Positions 10,385 to 33,564 of a stretch of 64,000 nucleotides of DNA are shown in pieces (the stretch's first letter is position 1; each line of letters starts with the position of its first letter). The DNA lies in the NCBI RefSeq assembly GCF_013141915.1, contig NZ_SROX01000001.1, positions 496,001-560,000 on the forward strand, given 5' to 3'. The notes under the pieces were generated by a model. The model made no database searches. It had not been told where the DNA came from and saw nothing but the letters and a program-made list of their open reading frames with translations. Origin of the DNA: Cupriavidus necator. GTDB taxonomy: Bacteria; Pseudomonadota; Gammaproteobacteria; Burkholderiales; Burkholderiaceae. A program made the position numbers and the translations under genes.

Positions 10385-10969
10385 TTACGGCTTGAGCGCT
10401 TTCGCGTCCAGGCTCCAGAGCTTGCGGTCGCTGGTGGAGACCGCGACGGCGCCATGTGCAAGCGCGCCACGGATATCCTCGCGGTTGCAGACAAAGCCCG
10501 AGGTGACGATTGGCGGGAGCGCGTTGCGGTCGGCTTGCGGCAGGTGCGACAGCATGGGTGCCGGCATCAGCTGCACCAGGTTAGGGTCGCTCTGCTCGAG
10601 CGCCTTGACGCTGCGCGGCCAGGTGGAGCGGTCGGTAACAAAGACCTTCTGCATCGTCACCATGCCCGCGCGGTTGGCGCGCTGGATGGTCGCCACGCGT
10701 GTGGAGACCAGGCTCGTCACCCCGATGTCGGCCAGGTAGTCCACTCCGCCCTTATCCTGCGACAGGCCTTCGCAGCTGTCGATATTGACGATGACATACT
10801 TGCTGGCGCTGGTCAGCGTGGCGATGACCGGCTGCAGCTTGCGCAACTCGACATTGGCGACGATGCAGACTTCGGCGACGCTTTCGATGATCGCGTCGAT
10901 CTGGTCGACACCATAAAGCGTGCCGATGACGGGATGTCGCGCCAGGCGCGCACCGAGGGACCTGTCCAT
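10385..10969 (-). CDS. glpP: GlpP-type glycerol-3-phosphate-responsive RNA-binding regulator
   Basis: 194 residues. The GlpP family pattern is clear: a TIM-barrel-like protein with HPVIGTLY near the start, VNIDSCEGLSQDKGGVDYL, GVTSLVSTR, and the C-terminal PPIVTSGFVCNREDIRGALAHGA segments. In Bacillus subtilis, GlpP binds the leader of glpD mRNA in the presence of glycerol-3-phosphate, preventing termination and stabilising the message. Here it is the last gene of a five-gene glycerol operon, 6 bases after the flavoprotein gene. Its target may be the hairpin in the operon leader (17282-17308). This kind of control is best known in Firmicutes. Confidence 0.88.
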   Translation of the reverse strand: MDRSLGARLARHPVIGTLYGVDQIDAIIESVAEVCIVANVELRKLQPVIATLTSASKYVIVNIDSCEGLSQDKGGVDYLADIGVTSLVSTRVATIQRANRAGMVTMQKVFVTDRSTWPRSVKALEQSDPNLVQLMPAPMLSHLPQADRNALPPIVTSGFVCNREDIRGALAHGAVAVSTSDRKLWSLDAKALKP

Positions 10970-10975
10970 GCGGGA

Positions 10976-12526
10976 TTACTTCGGTTCGTTGGCGAGCCGG
11001 TCACCGAGGCCCAGCTTGCCGGGGTTCAGCAGATGCTGCGGATCGAGCGCCTGCTTGACTGCCGTCAGCAGCGGGAAGGCCGTGTCCAGCGACGCCGCCA
11101 TGTATGGCGCGCGCAGCAGCCCGATGCCGTGGTGGTGGCTCAGTGCTGCATTGTATTGGATCAGCACTGCGTTGGCCGCATCCCATGCCTGGCGATACCA
11201 TTGCTGGCGATCCTCCACCGCCACCTCGCCGCGCAAGGAAAAATACAGGCAGGCGCCGTCCACGTAGGCATGCGACTGGTGCGCGGAGCCGGCAAGGGTA
11301 CCCGGCACGGCGTTGATCGCCTTGACCACGTCGGCGTAGATTGCCGCCAGGTCGCGCCAGGGCCCCGACATTTCCAGCGTATCGGCGACAAAACCCGGGC
11401 CGCGCTTGAAGCCTTCGGCGCTCTTGCCGGTCAGGTAGCGCGTGTCTAGCCAGCGCTCGAAGATCGCCGCGCTGTCGAGCTGGTCCCCAAGTCCCGCGCA
11501 CACGCGCTCGCTGATCGTCATCACGGCATCGACCATCTCGCGCGCCCCCTCGTCGGCCACCAGCAGCACATTGGTGTCGGGCAGCCCGAACTGCACCCCG
11601 CTCTCCAGCGCATCGTAGAGGCGCAGCGCGGCCGGTTTGGCGCCGCGCTGCATGATCTCGCGGCAGGCGTCGAGGCCAATGGCAAAGCTCTTGAAGCCGT
11701 AGGCGATGGCGCGCCCGTAGTCGGGCAGGCGATGCAGCTTCAGGCGCACGCGCACGATCACGCCGAGCATGCCTTCGGAGCCGATGAACAGCTGCTGCAG
11801 GTCCGGCCCCAGCGCCGCGCGCGCGTAGCCGCCCACGGTGACCAGGGTGCCGTCGGCCAGCACCACGTCCATGCCGAACACCATGTCCTCGATCTTGCCG
11901 TAGCGCGTGGACAGCTGGCCGGCGCCGCGGCAGGCCACCCATCCGCCCACCGTGCTGATCGCGTACGAAGACGGCCAGTGGCCCATCGTCATGCCGAATT
12001 CGCGCTGCACGGTCTGTTCGAAGATATCGCCGAACATGCCGGCTTCGACCTCGACGATCTGGCTGGCCTGGTCGAACCCGACCAGCCGATTGAGCGCGCA
12101 CACGTCTAGCACGATGCCGCCGCGCACGGGCAGGGCGGCACCGGTGACGTTGCTGCGCCCGGCCGACACGGTGACCGGAATGGCGCCGTTGCTGGCGATG
12201 CGCATGACGGCCTGGACTTGTTCCACAGTGGAGACGCGCACGATGACAGCGCGGGGCGTGGCCGGCTTGCCGGCGGTCTCCGTGATCATGGAACCGGCCC
12301 ACCAGTCGCGGGTCCATGCCACCACATTGGCCGTATCGGTCAGCACTTCGTCGGCCACCTTGCGCAGGGCCGCGACATCGGCCGCACCGACGGCGATGGG
12401 GTCGCGCTGCAGGCCCGGCGCATCCGGGGTGTCATGGAGGTTCGCCGCATAGCCGGGCGGGGTGTGGGCGCCGATGACGTAGTTGCCGCGGTTGTAGCCG
12501 CGCTTGATGGCTTCCTTGCTGATCAT
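10976..12526 (-). CDS. FAD-binding oxidoreductase, alkyl-DHAP synthase/glycolate oxidase-like
   Basis: 516 residues of the VAO/PCMH flavoprotein superfamily. The FAD-binding domain (about residues 90-270) includes VTVSAGRSNVTGAALPV and GQLSTRYGKIEDMV. The C-terminal half resembles the FAD-oxidase C domain (AALSHHHGIGLLR, then HLLNPGKLG at the end). The HHHGIG stretch resembles the active-site His motif of alkyldihydroxyacetonephosphate synthases. The start overlaps the glpD stop (ATGA, 12523-12526). Its place in a glycerol operon suggests a 3-carbon phosphate or ether-lipid-derived substrate, which is inference only. D-lactate or glycolate oxidation are alternatives. Confidence 0.85.
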   Translation of the reverse strand: MISKEAIKRGYNRGNYVIGAHTPPGYAANLHDTPDAPGLQRDPIAVGAADVAALRKVADEVLTDTANVVAWTRDWWAGSMITETAGKPATPRAVIVRVSTVEQVQAVMRIASNGAIPVTVSAGRSNVTGAALPVRGGIVLDVCALNRLVGFDQASQIVEVEAGMFGDIFEQTVQREFGMTMGHWPSSYAISTVGGWVACRGAGQLSTRYGKIEDMVFGMDVVLADGTLVTVGGYARAALGPDLQQLFIGSEGMLGVIVRVRLKLHRLPDYGRAIAYGFKSFAIGLDACREIMQRGAKPAALRLYDALESGVQFGLPDTNVLLVADEGAREMVDAVMTISERVCAGLGDQLDSAAIFERWLDTRYLTGKSAEGFKRGPGFVADTLEMSGPWRDLAAIYADVVKAINAVPGTLAGSAHQSHAYVDGACLYFSLRGEVAVEDRQQWYRQAWDAANAVLIQYNAALSHHHGIGLLRAPYMAASLDTAFPLLTAVKQALDPQHLLNPGKLGLGDRLANEPK

Positions 12527-14202
12527 GCTGGGTCTCCCATGAGGACGGATTTTTCGACGGCGACGGCCGCCAGGTATTCGCTGACCTGCCGCGCCACCGC
12601 GGCTTCGGCCAGGCCGAGTTCAGCCTTGAGAATCTGGCCCACCCGTGGCGCGGCGCGGGCCGAGGCATCGCGCGCCATCAGGCGCGCGCGGATGCGCCGT
12701 GACAAGACGTCATCGACCGTGCCGGCCAGTTCGTGGCGCACGGCATAGACGATCTCGGCTTCGGTGTAGGGCAGACCCTCGACAATGGGCCGCGCCAGGG
12801 CGGGATCCGCCTGCAGGATGTCGCTGACGAAGCGGGCTTCGGTGCCGTAGCGCTCGCCCAGGTGCGCGGCCATGCCGCCTGAGGCGACGATGGCCTGCGG
12901 GTCATAGCCGGCCGCGCCGAGCAGATAGGCCGACCGGGTCACGCACTTGCCGCGCTTGCCGATGACCTGCTGCGCGGCATCGATGGTTTGCTCGGCCATG
13001 TGGCGCGCGGTCGTGAGCTTGCCGCCGACAATGGTCACCAGCCCGTCGTGCGCGATATGAATCTCATGGTTGCGGCGGATCTCCAGCGTCTTGCCGCCGG
13101 GCGGGGCCACCAGCGGACGGCACCCCGCGATGCTGCCGACCACGTCCTGCGCGGAGAGGTCGACCTTCAGCGCCGAGCGCGCACCTTCGAGCAAAAAATC
13201 GAGTTCCTGACGGGTGCACAGCACGTTGTCGAGATCGCCGTCATAGTCTTCGTCGGTGGTGCCGAGGTAGGACACGTTGCCCCACCGCGTGATGGTCGCG
13301 CGCCGGCTGCGGCCCGGCACCGGGATCGTCACGGTGCAGTCATTGCGGATCTTCAGCCATGGGATGGCAACGTGGACCCCTTTGGCCGGGCGGATGTGCA
13401 GCGTCTTGTCCTCGCCCGGCTTGCGGCCGGTCCAGTCGCGCAGCCACACACCGGTGGCCATCACGACCGCGCCGGCGCGCACGCGGACTTCGCGTTCGCC
13501 GGCGTGGACGATGGCGCCATCGACCTTGCCGTGTCCGTCGCGCGTGATGGCGGTGACGGTGGCATGGTTGAGCACGGCCGCGCCGTGGAATGCCGCGGTC
13601 CGCGCAAGGTTCAGGGTCAGGCGGGCATCGTCAACGCGCGCATCGAAATACAGATAGCCGCCGGTCAGGTGTTCCTCGTTGAAGGTGGGGCAGTGGGACA
13701 GCACCTCGGCCTTGGTCAGCTTCTGGTGCAGGATGCCCTCGCGCCATCCGCCGGCCAGGTCGTAGGTCCACAGCAGGCTGCCGAAGGCCTTGGCCAGGCG
13801 CTTGTCGAAGACGCCGTCGCGCTCCATCACCGGGAACAGGAACGGCAGCCGCTGCACCAGGTGGCGCGCATTGCGGCGCAGGCGCTGGCGCTCCAGCAGC
13901 GAATGGCGCACCAGGCCGAGGTTGCCCTGTTCGATATAGCGCAAGCCGCCGTGCACCATCTTCGACGACTTGGACGAGGTCCCCGCGGCGAAGTCGTTCT
14001 TCTCGACCAGCGCCACGCGGTAGCCGCGCAGGCTGGCATCGAGCGCGGCGTAGGCGCCGGTGACGCCGCCCCCGACCACCAGGATGTCGAAGGCATCGGC
14101 CTCCAGGCGGTCGAGCTGGTCTGCGTGCACCAGCCGCAAAGGCTCCGTGCCGGTCAAGGCGGCACGCTCGCGGTTCGCGCTGCGGGAGGGGAAAATCACC
14201 AT
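12523..14202 (-). CDS. glpD: Aerobic glycerol-3-phosphate dehydrogenase
   Basis: 559 residues from the ATG at 14202, which has a GGAGC ribosome binding site about 9 bases before it. The frame opens further upstream inside glpK without homology. N-terminal FAD motif DILVVGGGVTGAYAALDA, then the GlpD signatures GTSSKSSKMVHGGLRYIEQG and GSIAGCRPLV. It oxidises glycerol-3-phosphate to DHAP at the membrane and passes electrons to quinone. It follows glpK by 16 bases. Confidence 0.95.
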   Translation of the reverse strand: MVIFPSRSANRERAALTGTEPLRLVHADQLDRLEADAFDILVVGGGVTGAYAALDASLRGYRVALVEKNDFAAGTSSKSSKMVHGGLRYIEQGNLGLVRHSLLERQRLRRNARHLVQRLPFLFPVMERDGVFDKRLAKAFGSLLWTYDLAGGWREGILHQKLTKAEVLSHCPTFNEEHLTGGYLYFDARVDDARLTLNLARTAAFHGAAVLNHATVTAITRDGHGKVDGAIVHAGEREVRVRAGAVVMATGVWLRDWTGRKPGEDKTLHIRPAKGVHVAIPWLKIRNDCTVTIPVPGRSRRATITRWGNVSYLGTTDEDYDGDLDNVLCTRQELDFLLEGARSALKVDLSAQDVVGSIAGCRPLVAPPGGKTLEIRRNHEIHIAHDGLVTIVGGKLTTARHMAEQTIDAAQQVIGKRGKCVTRSAYLLGAAGYDPQAIVASGGMAAHLGERYGTEARFVSDILQADPALARPIVEGLPYTEAEIVYAVRHELAGTVDDVLSRRIRARLMARDASARAAPRVGQILKAELGLAEAAVARQVSEYLAAVAVEKSVLMGDPA

Positions 14203-14218
14203 CTTGGGTTGCTCCGGG

Positions 14219-15769
14219 TTAATGGGCCTGACGGCATTCGTCGTCCTGACGGGCGGCGCGCGCGTCGGCATGGTCGAGTTCGGACGCCACGCGCGCATGC
14301 CAGAGCGCACGCCGCTCGGCACGCTGAGCCGAGTCGAGCGTTGGCTCGAACACTGCGTCGGGTATCGTGGTCGCGCGCGCCTGCTGCATGGAGTCCCACA
14401 GCAGGCCGGAAGCGCCGGCAAGGTAGGCGATGCCGCGCAGGCTGGCACGGTCGCTCTCTTTCATGCGGTGGACGGGAACACCGCTGAGATCGGCCTGCAT
14501 CTGCAGCAGCGCGTCGCTGCCGGACAGCCCGCCGCCCACCACCAGCGCCGACACCGGCACGCCTGCAATGTCCTGGTTCGCCTCGATGCATGAGGCTACG
14601 GAATGGGCAATGCCTTCCAGGATGCCAAAGGCCATCTCCGCGCGCGTTGTTGCCAGCGAGATGCCAGCCAGTGCCGCGCGCGCCTCGGGCTGCATGCGCG
14701 GCACGCGCAGGCCCGTCAGCGCCGGAATAAAGGTCACGCCCCGCGCCGACGTCACCGTGGCCGCCAGCGCGCTGATCTGCCTGGCGTTGTCGAACCAGCC
14801 GAGCTTGTCGCAGACCCAGTTGAGCGCCGAGCCGGTGGTGGCGACAAAGGTCTCGACCGAGAAGTGCGAGACGCCGTGGTGGCGGCGCGCGGTCATGGTC
14901 AGGGTGCTGTCCGACCTGCCGCTGCGCGCGGGAAGCTGCGGGCCGACTACCAGGTCGACGAAACTGCCGGTGCCATGCAGGCACATCGCCTGCCCGGCAT
15001 CGAGGCATCCGAGGCCGATGGCGCCGGCGAGCTGGTCGCCGGCGCAAGCCAGGATCGGCACGTCGATGCCGAGCACGTCGGGCCGGGTGCGGCCGAAGTC
15101 GTCCGCATCCTGGCGCAGCTCGGGCAGCAGTTCCCGTGGGAAGCCGAGCGCATCGATCCAGTCGAGCCGGTAGCGATGCCCGGTCAGCATGTAGGCATTG
15201 CAGGAGGTCGCGTTGGTCGGCGTGGTAAGGCACGCGCGCGCCGTCGACAGGTGCCACAGCAGCCAGGTGTCGATGGTGCCGAAGGCGAGCCTGCGCGCGC
15301 GCAAGGCTTCGGCCACCGCCGGTGTGTCGCGCAGGTGCCGTGCGGCCCACAGGTACGGCGAGCGCACACCGACCGGGCGGCCGACGGTGTCGCGCAGGGT
15401 GGCGTCCCATGCCGGCGCAAGCTGGTCTAGTTCGGCCGCATAGCGTGTGTCCTGCCACACCATGGCGGGGACCAATGCGCGCCCGGTGGCGGTGTCCCAC
15501 AGCACCGCGGTGGCGCGCTGTGTGGCGACGGCGAGGGCGACCACGTTCAGGTTTTCATTAGCCGCCTGTGCCAGCGTGGCGCGGCAAACCGCCAGCGTGC
15601 GCGCGAGCAGCGCGTCGGCGTCCTGCTCCACCACTCCGGGGCAAGGACTGTGGATCTCCAGCGCGGCGTAGTGCAGGCATTTCACGTGGCCGTCGGCAGC
15701 CACCACCGCGGCGCGCGTGCCCGAGGTGCCTTCATCGATCGCAAGGATGACGTTGCTGCGCTGGGTCAT
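14219..15769 (-). CDS. glpK: Glycerol kinase (FGGY family)
   Basis: 516 residues. ATP-binding start AIDEGTSGTRAAVV, substrate-region VWQDTR, LHGTGSFVDLV, and the FGGY signature region VVGGGLSGSDALLQMQADL. The start codon overlaps the end of the transporter gene (ATGA, 15766-15769). With glpD it makes the glycerol to DHAP route. The sequence departs from classical GlpK in several places (for instance GTGSF where many have GTGCF), so another polyol substrate is conceivable, but the operon favours glycerol. Confidence 0.88.
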   Translation of the reverse strand: MTQRSNVILAIDEGTSGTRAAVVAADGHVKCLHYAALEIHSPCPGVVEQDADALLARTLAVCRATLAQAANENLNVVALAVATQRATAVLWDTATGRALVPAMVWQDTRYAAELDQLAPAWDATLRDTVGRPVGVRSPYLWAARHLRDTPAVAEALRARRLAFGTIDTWLLWHLSTARACLTTPTNATSCNAYMLTGHRYRLDWIDALGFPRELLPELRQDADDFGRTRPDVLGIDVPILACAGDQLAGAIGLGCLDAGQAMCLHGTGSFVDLVVGPQLPARSGRSDSTLTMTARRHHGVSHFSVETFVATTGSALNWVCDKLGWFDNARQISALAATVTSARGVTFIPALTGLRVPRMQPEARAALAGISLATTRAEMAFGILEGIAHSVASCIEANQDIAGVPVSALVVGGGLSGSDALLQMQADLSGVPVHRMKESDRASLRGIAYLAGASGLLWDSMQQARATTIPDAVFEPTLDSAQRAERRALWHARVASELDHADARAARQDDECRQAH

Positions 15770-17229
15770 GGCCGGGCCTTTTCGATCACGGGTTGCATAA
15801 AGCCCGACGCGTCCGCCGCGTCGCCCTTGAACTGCGGCGCATCGGCTTCGTTATCGGGATGGATTGCAGTGCGAGTCGGGTCCCAGCGGATCGAAAAGCA
15901 GACCACGCTCGCCAGCAGCGGCACCACCGAAAGGATCAGGAAGGTGGTCTCCAACCCGTATTGCGCGCGGAACAGCGGGAACACCAGCAAGCCCAGTGCG
16001 GCGCCGATGGCACCGAGCGCGCCGATGACGCCGTTGGCCCCGGCGCGCAGTTCGCTGCGGAATGACAGGGACGACAAGCTCTTGCCATTCGCGCCGGGGC
16101 CGGCAGAGTGGAACAGGATGAACAGCGACGGCACCACCACGGCAATCCACATCGGCATCTTGCCGTTGAACAGGCCGAGTATCAGCAGCATGGCGAACAC
16201 CGCCGCGAAGCCGAACGCCGAAGCGCGGCGCAGGCCCAGCGTGCGGCCGACCAGCGGCGACAGGAAGCCACCGACAATGCCGCATACGTTGAACACCAGC
16301 GCGCCGATGGTCGCGTAGACAAAATCCTTGCCAAACAGCGCCGCGCTGATCAGCGGCAGGTACCAGCCGATCGCGAAGTACTGGATCGACTGCCCGATCT
16401 GCACGGTGGCCGCGAGCATGGTGCGCGGCAGGTAGATGCCGCGAAAGATCAGCAGCACGTTGGCCAGGCCGCGCCGCGCCTGGTTGAGCACGGGGATCCG
16501 CTCCGCGGCCGGGGCGGCAATGAACGTTCGCCCATAGATGCGCGTCATGGCGCTGGCGGCGGCCTCGAGCCGTTCCTTGCGTGCCAGCCAGGTCGGGCTT
16601 TCCACCAGGAACAGGCCTTGCAGCAGCAGGATGGCCACGCCAAAAACCGCCGTGGCGGCCACCGAGTAGCGCCAGATCGTATCGCCGACGTCCCACGAGT
16701 AGAACAGCAGCGCCAGCAGCAGGTTGGCGCAGACGGCCGTGTACCACATGCCTTGCCACGTGTTCAGCCGGCTCTTGAGCTTCACCGGCGTGAACTCCGC
16801 CAGCACGGCCATGGCGATGGCGAAGTCGATCCCGTAGGCCGCGCCAACAAAGAAGCGCCCGGCCAGGATCACCTCGAATCCGGGCGCCAACACGACCAGC
16901 ACCGCGCCGACTACCGCGAGCACCTTGGCCAGAATCAGCGGCCGGACACGGCCCCAGCGATCGGCCATCCAACCGCCGATCGGATTGAAGGCAATGGCCA
17001 CCCACGATGCGAACGACGTCAGCAGCGCAACCTTGGCGGGCACGAGCTGGAGGTCGCGCGTCATCGGCCCGAGGCCGGCGCTAAGCGCCGAATTGGAAAA
17101 CGCGTCGAGGAACAGTCCGCCCAGGGCGAGCCACCAGATGGCAGCGGCCCTGCCGCGTATGCCAGGGCAGGAATCTATGTAGGCAATGACATCATCGATG
17201 CCACGAAGCTTGATCGCAGAAGGTTGCAC
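15766..17229 (-). CDS. MFS transporter of the glycerol operon
   Basis: 487 residues with about 12 hydrophobic segments. The MFS loop motif between helices 2 and 3 reads GGWMADRWGRVRP, and FFVGAAYGIDFAIAM and ESPTWLARKERL give a sugar-porter-like look. The start is a GTG at 17229 with a strong AGGAGACC ribosome binding site at 17233-17240. First gene of the glp operon, so it should import glycerol, a glycerol phosphodiester or a related compound. No GlpF aquaporin gene is present. Substrate is inference. Confidence 0.85.
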   Translation of the reverse strand: MQPSAIKLRGIDDVIAYIDSCPGIRGRAAAIWWLALGGLFLDAFSNSALSAGLGPMTRDLQLVPAKVALLTSFASWVAIAFNPIGGWMADRWGRVRPLILAKVLAVVGAVLVVLAPGFEVILAGRFFVGAAYGIDFAIAMAVLAEFTPVKLKSRLNTWQGMWYTAVCANLLLALLFYSWDVGDTIWRYSVAATAVFGVAILLLQGLFLVESPTWLARKERLEAAASAMTRIYGRTFIAAPAAERIPVLNQARRGLANVLLIFRGIYLPRTMLAATVQIGQSIQYFAIGWYLPLISAALFGKDFVYATIGALVFNVCGIVGGFLSPLVGRTLGLRRASAFGFAAVFAMLLILGLFNGKMPMWIAVVVPSLFILFHSAGPGANGKSLSSLSFRSELRAGANGVIGALGAIGAALGLLVFPLFRAQYGLETTFLILSVVPLLASVVCFSIRWDPTRTAIHPDNEADAPQFKGDAADASGFMQPVIEKARP

Positions 17230-17232
17230 GGC

Positions 17233-17308
17233 GGTCTCCTTTTACTTGTTCTGTAAGAGGCCGCAGCAACTGCAAGGCGCGAAGAGACCATCTTACAGAT
17301 GGTCTCTT
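17233..17308 (-). promoter_or_regulatory. glp leader hairpin with competing Shine-Dalgarno pairing
   Basis: In the transcript (minus strand) a perfect hairpin forms from AAGAGACCAUCU (17308-17297) and AGAUGGUCUCUU (17293-17282) with a GUA loop. The 3' arm end GGUCUCUU can instead pair with the ribosome binding site AGGAGACC (17240-17233), 8 base pairs with one G-U. The 5' arm therefore copies the ribosome binding site and competes with it. Hairpin formed would mean the site is free; hairpin open would mean the site is masked. It is a plausible target for GlpP, encoded at the end of the same operon. There is no T-run, so translational or stability control is more likely than antitermination. 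Confidence 0.55.
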
Positions 17309-17326
17309 ATCTAGATCTGCGGGGCC

Positions 17327-17355
17327 AATGTATGGCTTCGCAGGGACAGCGTCAA
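17327..17355 (-). promoter_or_regulatory. Sigma-70-type promoter of the glp operon
   Basis: On the minus strand TTGACG (17355-17350) and TACATT (17332-17327) are spaced by 17 bases. Transcription would start near 17320, about a dozen bases before the leader hairpin and roughly 90 bases before the GTG start of the transporter gene. Confidence 0.55.
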
Positions 17356-17379: not shown

Positions 17380-18747
17380 CTAGCGTGCCGCTGGATTTCG
17401 CGTGGCACGGCCAAGACCGGCTTCCTGGGGGCCAAGCTGCCCCTCATGCCGCCGTCCCAGCCACCAACCCAGTCCTGCCCACGCCAGTGCCAGCAGGGCG
17501 CCTGCCAGGGCCACCGTCGCGGGATGGCCCGACAGCGCATCGATGGCGGTCTTGACCCAGGCACTGACCGCATCGCCCGCGCGGTAAACGGCGGTGTCGA
17601 TCACGTTCTTGGCCTTGTACTTGGTTTCGGCATCGACCACGGTGAACAGCATTTCGCGCCCGGGGCGCAGCAGCGCGTATTCGCCCACGCGCCGCAGGAC
17701 CATGACGGCCGCGAGCACGCCGAAGGTGGGCAGCAGGGCCAGCACAAGGAAACCCGCGGTGACTGCCAGCGGCACCGCTGTCAGCAGCATGGTGACCCCA
17801 TAACGGCGCGCCACGCGGCCGGTGAAGAACAGTTGCACGACGATGGTCAGCGCCTGCACCGCGGCATCCAGCGCGCTAAACACCTGGGTCTGGCGGGTGC
17901 GCTCGGGAAAGGCCTCGGCCACCAGCCGAGCCTGCTCGAAGTACAGGAAGGTGCTGGCCGTGGCGAGCAGGATCACGAACAAGCCGATGCCGAGCAGGTA
18001 GCGCGAGCGCAGCAACAGCGACAGCCCGGCCAGCAGCCCGCCGCCAATCGGATTGCCAGGATCCTGGACCGCGCGGGCAGCGGCCTTGCCCGGCTGCGCC
18101 ACGCCCGCGCCAGCCCGCCGGCGCCAGCCGAACAGCCAGCCCACGCCCGGCAGCGTGGCGGCCAGCAAGGCGGCCGACAGCAGCATCAGGCCGGTCAGGC
18201 CGATATGCGGCACCAGCCAGCCGCCCAGCACCGGCCCGGCGAGTCCGCCCGCGCTGGCGCCGGCGGCCAGCAGCGCAAACAGCCGGCGCGCCTGCTCGGG
18301 CCTGAACACATCGGCCATCAGGCTCCATGCCACCGACACCACGAACAGGTTGAACACAGACAGCCACACGTAGAACACACGCGCCAGCCAGATGTTGTCC
18401 GGCAGGGCGCGCGTGGCCAGCGCAAAGGCCAGCAGGTTGGCAATGAAGAAGGCGTATACCCACGGCACGAAGCGGCGCCGTGGCAGCCACGCGCAGACCG
18501 CGCCGTAAAGCGGGATCGCGGCCAGCATCACGACGAAGGTGGCGGTGAACAGCCATTGCAGGTTCTTCACGCCGCCGGCAATGCCCATGGTCTCGCGTAC
18601 CGGACGCAGCATGAAATAGCTGGCGAACAGGCAGAAGAAGAACAGGAAACCGGCCACCACCGCGCCGGCTTCGCCGGTGCGGACACCGAAGCCGCGCCCC
18701 AGCCGGGCCAGGCCGCTGGCAGGTGGCTCGCGCTCGGGATCGTCCAC
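17380..18747 (-). CDS. MFS transporter, NTP/NDP-exchange-like
   Basis: 455 residues, about 12 membrane segments. The N-terminus (FFFCLFASYFMLRPVRETMG) and VAWSLMADVFRPEQARRLF are the hallmark regions of bacterial MFS proteins annotated as ATP/ADP-translocase-like or NTP/NDP exchange transporters. In free-living beta-proteobacteria the substrate of these proteins is unknown, and energy parasitism is unlikely. It lies 12 bases after the aldo/keto reductase gene on the same strand, so the two are probably co-transcribed. Confidence 0.75.
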   Translation of the reverse strand: MDDPEREPPASGLARLGRGFGVRTGEAGAVVAGFLFFFCLFASYFMLRPVRETMGIAGGVKNLQWLFTATFVVMLAAIPLYGAVCAWLPRRRFVPWVYAFFIANLLAFALATRALPDNIWLARVFYVWLSVFNLFVVSVAWSLMADVFRPEQARRLFALLAAGASAGGLAGPVLGGWLVPHIGLTGLMLLSAALLAATLPGVGWLFGWRRRAGAGVAQPGKAAARAVQDPGNPIGGGLLAGLSLLLRSRYLLGIGLFVILLATASTFLYFEQARLVAEAFPERTRQTQVFSALDAAVQALTIVVQLFFTGRVARRYGVTMLLTAVPLAVTAGFLVLALLPTFGVLAAVMVLRRVGEYALLRPGREMLFTVVDAETKYKAKNVIDTAVYRAGDAVSAWVKTAIDALSGHPATVALAGALLALAWAGLGWWLGRRHEGQLGPQEAGLGRATRNPAAR

Positions 18748-33017: not shown

Positions 33018-33240
33018 TGTGGTCAGGCAGGCCGCGGGAAAACTGTCGCTTGCAGCCCCAGGCGCTGCCTCCTTACCCTATTTGTAGTACACCGCAAGGC
33101 ACGTTGCCGAGAACGTGGCCGGCACCGCGGCGCGGGCCGCACCAGGATACGAGCTTCGCGCGGGGCCCACAGTGACCAGGGACAATCGTGCTAACATGCG
33201 CGGGCCGGTGCCGGCCGCTTGGCCGGCCCGGTTACGTTAC

Positions 33241-33392
33241 GTCTTCAGGGCGGGGTGAAAGTCCCCACCGGCGGTATGCCGCGACGCGCAGCGCGTGTCC
33301 GGCGAGCCCGCGAGCGCTCGCATTCCCGTGCGAGGTCAGCAGACCTGGTGAGAGGCCAGGGCCGACGGTCATAGTCCGGATGAAAGAAGATG
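33241..33392 (+). promoter_or_regulatory. FMN riboswitch (RFN element)
   Basis: All conserved parts of the RFN element are visible in order: GTCTTCAGGGCGGGGTGAAA, GTCCCCACCGGCGGTATGCC, then AGCCCGCGAGCGCT, GGTCAGCAGACCTGGTGAGA, GGCCAGGGCCGACGGTCATA and GTCCGGATGAAAGAAGATGA. It lies about 170 bases before the ribB start. FMN binding should reduce ribB expression. Confidence 0.97.
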
Positions 33393-33564
33393 AACGGAGC
33401 TTGCCCGCGTGGCCTGGTGCTTGCCTGGCGCTGCGGTTTGCCGAGCCTTGCGCGCGCGCAGGGCGCGGCGGTTCGTGCGCGTGCCGACAGTGCAGCGCGC
33501 GCGCCTTGCGGTTCCGTTGACCCTTCCCCTGGAACGCCCATTGATGCTGAACCAGGAGCGTTTC

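Follow-up and report, generated by a model that had tools for sequence, protein, structure and literature searches.

A conserved leader RNA with three competing helices precedes a GlpP-containing operon of Cupriavidus necator and probably acts as a translational switch

The operon and its leader

We analysed a stretch of 64,000 nucleotides from Cupriavidus necator, referred to here as the window. Its minus strand carries a five-gene operon preceded by a promoter and a structured leader (Table 1). GlpP is a long-known antiterminator, and the first-pass annotation had placed a GlpP gene in this operon; we find it there as the fifth and last gene, encoding a protein similar to chains of 3kts and 1vkf. 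Neither the kinase nor the dehydrogenase reaches its NCBIfam cut-off (326 versus 590 bits for GlpK and 267 versus 360 bits for GlpD), so that the substrate may be something other than plain glycerol. Immediately 5′ of the promoter, the same strand encodes an MFS protein weakly similar to ATP/ADP carriers (TLC; 17383-18747). Elsewhere, an FMN riboswitch (RF00050, 105.7 bits, 33237-33395, plus strand) was the sole gathering-level Rfam match in the window.

Table 1 Positions of the genes and leader elements within the window
Feature	Positions	Strand	Basis
Sigma-70-like promoter, TTGACG-17-TACATT	17327..17355	-	sequence match
P0, GCAGAU-(loop CUAGAUAAGAGACC)-AUCUGU, candidate hairpin for GlpP binding at the 5′ end of the transcript	17295..17320	-	
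P1, perfect 12-bp hairpin: E1 17308-17297, loop 17296-17294, E2 (3′ arm) 17293-17282	17282..17308	-	
P3, UCUGUAAGA(U)GGUC (17299-17286) with GGCCUCUUACAGA (17262-17250)	17250..17299	-	permutation and alignment
E4, GCGGCCUCUUACAGA, anti-Shine-Dalgarno	17250..17264	-	nearly invariant in the genus
P2, E4 with AGGAG-A-CCGC (17240-17231), masking the ribosome site	17231..17264	-	fold and permutation
Shine-Dalgarno sequence, AAGGAG	17236..17241	-	read from sequence
Gene 1, MFS transporter, GTG start 17229-17227	15766..17229	-	
Gene 2, FGGY kinase, glycerol kinase relative	14219..15769	-	
Gene 3, GlpD-like FAD dehydrogenase, start uncertain	12523..14289	-	
Gene 4, FAD-linked oxidase	10976..12526	-	
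Gene 5, GlpP, glycerol-3-phosphate responsive antiterminator family	10385..10969	-	PF04309, 167 bits

Judged from the promoter-like site, the transcript likely starts at about 17320, 12 nt 5′ of hairpin P1, and its leader is about 91 nt long (about 17320 to 17230). The perfect 12-base hairpin previously noted about a dozen bases past the start is thus where it was said to be, as the palindrome AAGAGACCATCT-GTA-AGATGGTCTCTT. At up to three mismatches, this pattern had no match in 100 shuffles of the window and only a single copy in the 6.97-Mb genome. The sequence 3′ of the hairpin contains no U-run, as had also been stated, and no terminator-like site was found on the minus strand between 17180 and 17480. 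Structure prediction favoured a folded leader, at −41.5 kcal/mol compared with a shuffled mean of −27.4 (z −4.3), with none of 200 shuffles as good.

Conservation of the leader together with GlpP

Distant relatives were taken as the best 80 of 109 matches of a transporter-gene search in the genome collection. These best 80 span Herbaspirillum, Paraburkholderia, Burkholderia, Achromobacter, Variovorax, Delftia, Comamonas and Cupriavidus as well as alphaproteobacteria, Enterobacteria, Actinobacteria and one Sporosarcina. The hairpin anchor was present in all 80 loci; the E4 element and ribosome site that follow it were judged by eye and are least clear in L154 and L136. The five genes occurred in the same order in 76 of the best 80 loci, with GlpP identified by tblastn, and the other four contigs end before GlpP. 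A promoter-like site (8 of 12 positions or better) lies upstream of 74 of 81 leaders, and 67 of these 74 sites end 7-9 nt 5′ of the CAG at the 5′ end of the leader.

In a draw of 60 genomes of the genus, the 17 with the leader were the same 17 with a PF04309 gene. Among these 17, the DNA 5′ of the promoter diverges and the transcript is nearly invariant from GCAGAT onwards, including the E4 stretch GCGGCCTCTTACAGAA. The first covariance model was built from genus leaders only; its 73 matches include minus-strand echoes and partial matches, and alignment A4 was excluded from the counts. With stricter filters for the order scan, the covariance model gave three strong matches (E below 1e-8; G000, G009 and G201) among 399 order genomes, one of which (G009) also has a minus-strand echo of the palindrome. 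A full-length PF04309 gene is present in each of the three. Weak matches (E about 0.08-0.09) came from two more genomes of the order, and another two (G135 and G253) have a different GlpP and lack this leader. The linkage of the leader to GlpP is thus established by comparison.

Several loci deserve separate mention. In another family of the order, L063 and L064 encode, beside ABC-transporter genes and without this leader, a different GlpP homologue (22% and 26% identical, respectively, to that of the window). In G027 (L018 / L069), the transporter match falls into two overlapping pieces (residues 5-103 and 80-486), as if the frame were broken, although leader and GlpP are present. In L144-L155, from Actinobacteria or Sporosarcina, the operon order is kept and the transporter is 61-70% identical to that of Cupriavidus, which suggests transfer between phyla.

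Three competing helices at the ribosome site

Pairing was assessed in two ways. A permutation test compared duplex energies of segments from the same leader (cognate) with those of segments combined between species (non-cognate), using one leader for each of 25 genus-level groups. Groups and segment limits were set after viewing the sequences, and because the leaders are related by descent the permutation counts are not true probabilities; the fixed E4 segment also clips the element in L111 and L135, whose P3 looks weaker in this test. The MAFFT alignment A5 comprises 34 of 69 proteobacterial leaders, near-duplicates having been thinned by eye; it leaves out L136, L137, L138, L141 and L142 (Aureimonas and Enterobacteria) and the long-insert Paraburkholderia leaders L089 and L097. 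Since the register of the ribosome site shifts in A5, P2 was judged by duplex permutation only.

Hairpin P1 is supported by both. Across the 34 aligned proteobacterial leaders, 91.9% of its cells are paired (0 of 500 shuffles as high), and one pair is A-U in 17 leaders and G-C in 14; doubly changed pairs were matched by 62 of 500 shuffles. Across these leaders, 30 P1 cells are G-U, which we read as a signature of RNA. In the 25 groups, cognate P1 duplexes averaged −15.1 compared with −11.0 for non-cognate ones (z −6.6, 0 of 5,000 permutations). Compensatory and G-U changes in relatives bear out the hairpin.

Comparison with relatives points to a competitor of the hairpin other than the one originally proposed. 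The first-pass annotation had the 3′ arm of P1 alternating between its 5′ arm and the ribosome site, overlooking E4. However, the minimum-energy fold of the window leader already places another helix at the ribosome site, namely P2, in which E4 pairs over nine positions with one C-A mismatch. The form of P2 backed by relatives joins GCGG-C-CUCUU (17264-17255) to AGGAG-A-CCGC (17240-17231); its cognate duplexes averaged −14.5 and non-cognate ones −11.6 (z −5.5, 0 of 5,000 permutations, 25 groups). E4 can alternatively pair with the apex and 3′ arm of the hairpin. This helix, P3, has 13 pairs and one bulge in the window, and its cognate duplexes in the 25 groups averaged −17.4 compared with −12.4 for non-cognate ones (z −8.7, 0 of 5,000 permutations). 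On the proteobacterial alignment, 94.8% of P3 cells are paired, with double changes at three pairs; support is modestly above shuffles (cells paired 14 of 500, covariation score 10 of 500), and doubly changed pairs were as frequent in 130 of 500 shuffles.

P3 pairing is kept with altered letters in Brucella, Arthrobacter, Brevibacterium, Agrococcus and Aureimonas. It is clearest in Actinobacteria, where CUCCUGUCGGAGGUUU pairs with UGACCUCUGACAGGGGC in L152 and UUCCUGGUGGGGAGUCU with UGACUGCCUACCAGGAAA in L148, and is weak (−10 to −11) in Enterobacteria, whose E4 lacks ACAGA. All three helices also gave 0 of 5,000 permutations in the 18 proteobacterial groups alone; in the 12 Actinobacteria and Sporosarcina leaders alone, the counts were 39 for P1, 3 for P2 and 0 for P3. 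Control segment pairs showed no clear excess (557, 4,200 and 4,991 of 5,000 permutations). Pairing of E1 with E4 had a weak effect (23 of 5,000), which could be expected because both segments pair with E2.

These elements form a chain of alternatives in which E1-E2 makes P1, E2-E4 makes P3 and E4 with the ribosome site makes P2; P1 and P2 are compatible, and P3 excludes both. P1, P2, P3 and their mutual exclusion are established at the level of sequence comparison. Two features of a Shine-Dalgarno-masking switch were found, a conserved and co-varying helix that covers the site (P2) and a conserved helix that excludes it (P3).

Predicted energies for the window were −34.4 for P1 with P2, −20.8 for P3 and −13.8 for P0 with P3. 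The unbound leader is thus predicted to be OFF (P1 and P2), and a protein or the order of co-transcriptional folding would have to pay the cost of switching. When E1 was blocked in silico, half or more of the Shine-Dalgarno sequence was unpaired in 12 of the 25 group representatives. Aureimonas and Brevibacterium, which belong to these 12, were open even without the block, so that 10 of 25 were opened by it, and 13, including the window, stayed covered. In the window, the site remained covered because the 3′ arm then pairs directly with it, an arrangement favoured over P3 by 0.8 kcal/mol. Energy models by themselves therefore leave the ON state undecided; conservation favours P3.

In 11 of the 12 Actinobacteria and Sporosarcina leaders a U-run follows P1, which is also longer at its base, so that P1 looks like an intrinsic terminator there. 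P2 is retained in this set despite the U-run. In Proteobacteria, TTTT occurs 12-48 nt past the apex in 19 of 69 leaders; in 14 of these 19 (Achromobacter) it lies inside the hairpin arm, and in Citrobacter (three leaders) and Mixta (L137) a U-run stands a few bases after the hairpin, so mixed output is possible in these few Enterobacteria. The window has no U-run, and its switch therefore probably acts on translation. With no terminator in the window, P2 appears to be the sole visible output remaining.

Two other accounts of the palindrome were weighed against this arrangement. Direct alternation of the 3′ arm between the 5′ arm and the ribosome site, the structure initially proposed, draws on eight complementary positions in the window (GGTCTCTT, 17289-17282, with AGGAGACC, 17240-17233, including one G-U), on the preference of the energy model once E1 is blocked (−21.6 compared with −20.8 for P3) and on strong pairing in some relatives (L088, −13.1; L137, −13.8). 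However, cognate segments paired no better than non-cognate ones across the 25 groups (−9.10 versus −8.98, z −0.3, 1,922 of 5,000 permutations), and in the 34 proteobacterial leaders 73.5% of cells are paired, a level that 498 of 500 shuffles also reached, and co-variation does not exceed that of shuffles. Loss of P1 would moreover turn expression OFF in such a model, the opposite of the antitermination logic expected for relatives with a U-run, and we consider it quite improbable. Still less probable, indeed very unlikely, is a DNA operator for a dimeric repressor. A perfect 27-bp dyad directly after the promoter would suit an operator, and the lack of a second genomic copy fits a local regulator as well as it fits RNA. 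By contrast, P1 is kept through G-U cells that break the symmetry of the DNA, so the dyad is not conserved at the DNA level; P2 and P3 co-vary, and Actinobacteria have the same hairpin with a U-run. The original interpretation is thus supported in its broader part, an RNA-level switch of the translational type with GlpP as the likely factor, for which the compensatory and G-U changes in the hairpin, the conserved position of the GlpP gene and the lack of a terminator in the window all argue; its competing structure gives way to E4 with P2 and P3.

A candidate GlpP site and the proposed switch

Pairing is possible between CAGAU at the transcript's 5′ end and AUCUG at the apex of the hairpin; it encloses CUAGAUAAGAGACC and overlaps P1. 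Hairpins of this type (P0), with two AGA motifs in the loop, were found in 80 of 81 leaders, compared with a mean of 1.6 and a maximum of 4 in shuffled sequences. In the 34 aligned proteobacterial leaders, P0 is 96.1% paired and its outer pair is A-U in 16, G-U in 15 and G-C in 3; pairing within Proteobacteria was not above shuffles (125 of 500). Between phyla the stem changes from CAGA:UCUG to CAGG:CCUG (1 of 5,000 permutations, one leader per group), and inside phyla it shows no co-variation (Proteobacteria 1,448 of 5,000; Actinobacteria set 3,213 of 5,000).

Outside this operon, two-AGA-loop hairpins were present in 5 of 10 other GlpP-associated leaders, which were picked by eye (shuffled mean 1.1, maximum 3): two of the E. 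coli ygc locus, with perfect stems of 6 and 7 bp, and one each of Streptomyces clavuligerus, Enterococcus raffinosus and Cytobacillus glpF. Among glpP-glpK intergenic regions of Bacillota, 7 of 12 have such a hairpin (shuffled mean 1.9, maximum 4). The 12 regions counted are 11 of 18 extracted plus L170; L176, L183, L184, L185, L187, L188 and L189 were left out, and by eye no such hairpin was noticed in the last six. When at least five Watson-Crick pairs were demanded, the counts were 70 of 81 leaders, 4 of 10 (shuffled maximum 3) and 3 of 12 (maximum 2). The comparison is partly post hoc, as the loops were noticed only on reading the intergenic regions. Three of these leaders, the two of E. 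coli and that of Streptomyces, have the 3′ strand of the stem within a terminator arm, the placement expected of an antiterminator; we treat this as a lead rather than proof. Scanned loosely, two-AGA hairpins showed no excess (22, shuffled mean 17.3, maximum 25), and a strict scan gave 3 (mean 0.28, maximum 2, 60 shuffles). The word AGAGAC precedes the terminator at 7 of 27 sites (six leaders), and control words do so at 6 of 27, 2 of 27, 1 of 27, 1 of 19 and 3 of 39, two of the six lying in the same leaders. A scan of 22 Bacillota GlpP loci found no AGAGAC with a T-run.

Two sets of loci add further observations. The E. coli ygc locus (L162) has two opposed leaders with terminators, at about 12290-12345 (plus strand) and 12150-12085 (minus strand), near a PF04309 gene, and this pair is likely a GlpP-type regulon. 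In the glpP-glpK regions L168-L182, AGAGA-N-AGAGAGA loops of several Bacillota glpK leaders stand 5′ of long, G+C-rich hairpins that show no evident U-run; these hairpins are possibly another GlpP output that is not a terminator.

We consider it likely that the leader is a GlpP-controlled translational switch in which E4 shuttles between the ribosome site and the apex and 3′ arm of P1. When active GlpP is lacking, E1 and E2 would close P1, leaving E4 free to mask the Shine-Dalgarno sequence through P2, and translation of the transporter would be low. GlpP bound to its phosphorylated ligand, which may be glycerol-3-phosphate or whatever the operon's kinase produces, would hold the 5′ hairpin P0, whose AGAUAAGAGAC loop contains most of the 5′ arm of P1. 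With P1 thus blocked, the apex and 3′ arm could take up E4 as P3 before transcription reaches the ribosome site, which would then stay open. What we infer in this scheme is that GlpP binds, that it does so at P0, which ligand it carries and in which direction it exerts control.

Other triggers and other outputs must be set against this scheme. A switch of the same shape might respond to a small RNA, to Hfq or to a directly bound metabolite: GlpP binding to the leader is a prediction, and with kinase and dehydrogenase below the glycerol cut-offs neither ligand nor factor is certain. Against this, GlpP is the fifth gene in every contig long enough to contain it (76 of 76 among the best 80 of 109 matches) and accompanies the leader in 17 of 17 leader-bearing genus genomes, which is linkage and not proof. 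Nor does the leader match any Rfam family: with Rfam 15, neither the window leader nor the loci of seven relatives gave a gathering-level match (best permissive E 2.2-3.6). Such a trigger therefore seems unlikely to us, and a similarly low probability attaches to P1 acting mainly on transcription, through Rho-dependent termination or a weak intrinsic terminator, or on the stability of the mRNA, in Proteobacteria as well. For the latter speak the proteobacterial leaders with TTTT, above all those of Citrobacter and Mixta in which it follows the hairpin, and the stabilization of glpD mRNA by GlpP reported in PMC7430163. However, the window has no U-run, and P2 both masks the ribosome site and co-varies in Proteobacteria. 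The GlpP-controlled translational switch is therefore the reading we carry forward; the leader RNA itself is real and conserved, and the switch most likely derives from, or is parental to, an antitermination leader.

If so, the leader offers a concrete candidate site, P0, and three competing helices together with about 80 natural variants, and an operon of uncertain substrate gains a testable inducer. It also suggests that a single protein family governs termination in some bacteria of one phylum and translation in those of another. In the openly readable literature, to which the older subscription papers on glpD do not belong, we found neither a comparative definition of the RNA site of GlpP nor an account of GlpP acting on translation, of GlpP acting in Proteobacteria or of this operon.

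In its logic the leader resembles attenuators such as that of trp, in which four segments form the alternative pairings 1:2, 2:3 and 3:4. The same four-segment chain is seen here; unlike in trp, the 3:4 pairing hides a ribosome site, and the likely trigger is a protein rather than a stalled ribosome. A second parallel is the E. coli ygc locus, where the gene of a PF04309 protein lies beside MFS, FAD-oxidase and flavoprotein genes. Its two leaders likewise have perfect stems with two-AGA loops, overlapping a terminator arm; they differ in having terminators with U-runs, in their gene order and in that no E4-type element was noticed.

The closest known systems are found in Bacillus subtilis, where GlpP controls antitermination in the leaders of glpD, glpFK and glpT, as described in PMC9604022 and PMC7430163; the GlpP binding site is drawn in Fig. 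S1 of PMC9604022. As far as those descriptions go, both systems have a GlpP-family protein, a hairpin between promoter and first gene and metabolism of the glycerol-phosphate type, and the actinobacterial orthologue of P1 is terminator-like. By contrast, the window has no U-run, its output is apparently masking of the ribosome site through E4, and its operon has a different transporter, a different kinase and a second FAD enzyme. We did not file it under the B. subtilis type because the window has no terminator; it probably works like that type with another output. A broader view, on which we are evenly divided, is that GlpP throughout bacteria reads one RNA element, a short 5′ hairpin with a variable stem and a two-AGA loop of 12-20 nt, which shares sequence with the 5′ arm of another hairpin. 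The leader family, absent from Rfam, would have moved between phyla with the whole operon, and its output would have evolved between termination (Actinobacteria, E. coli ygc, Streptomyces and Bacilli) and ribosome-site masking (Proteobacteria), with both possibly combined in one leader in Actinobacteria.
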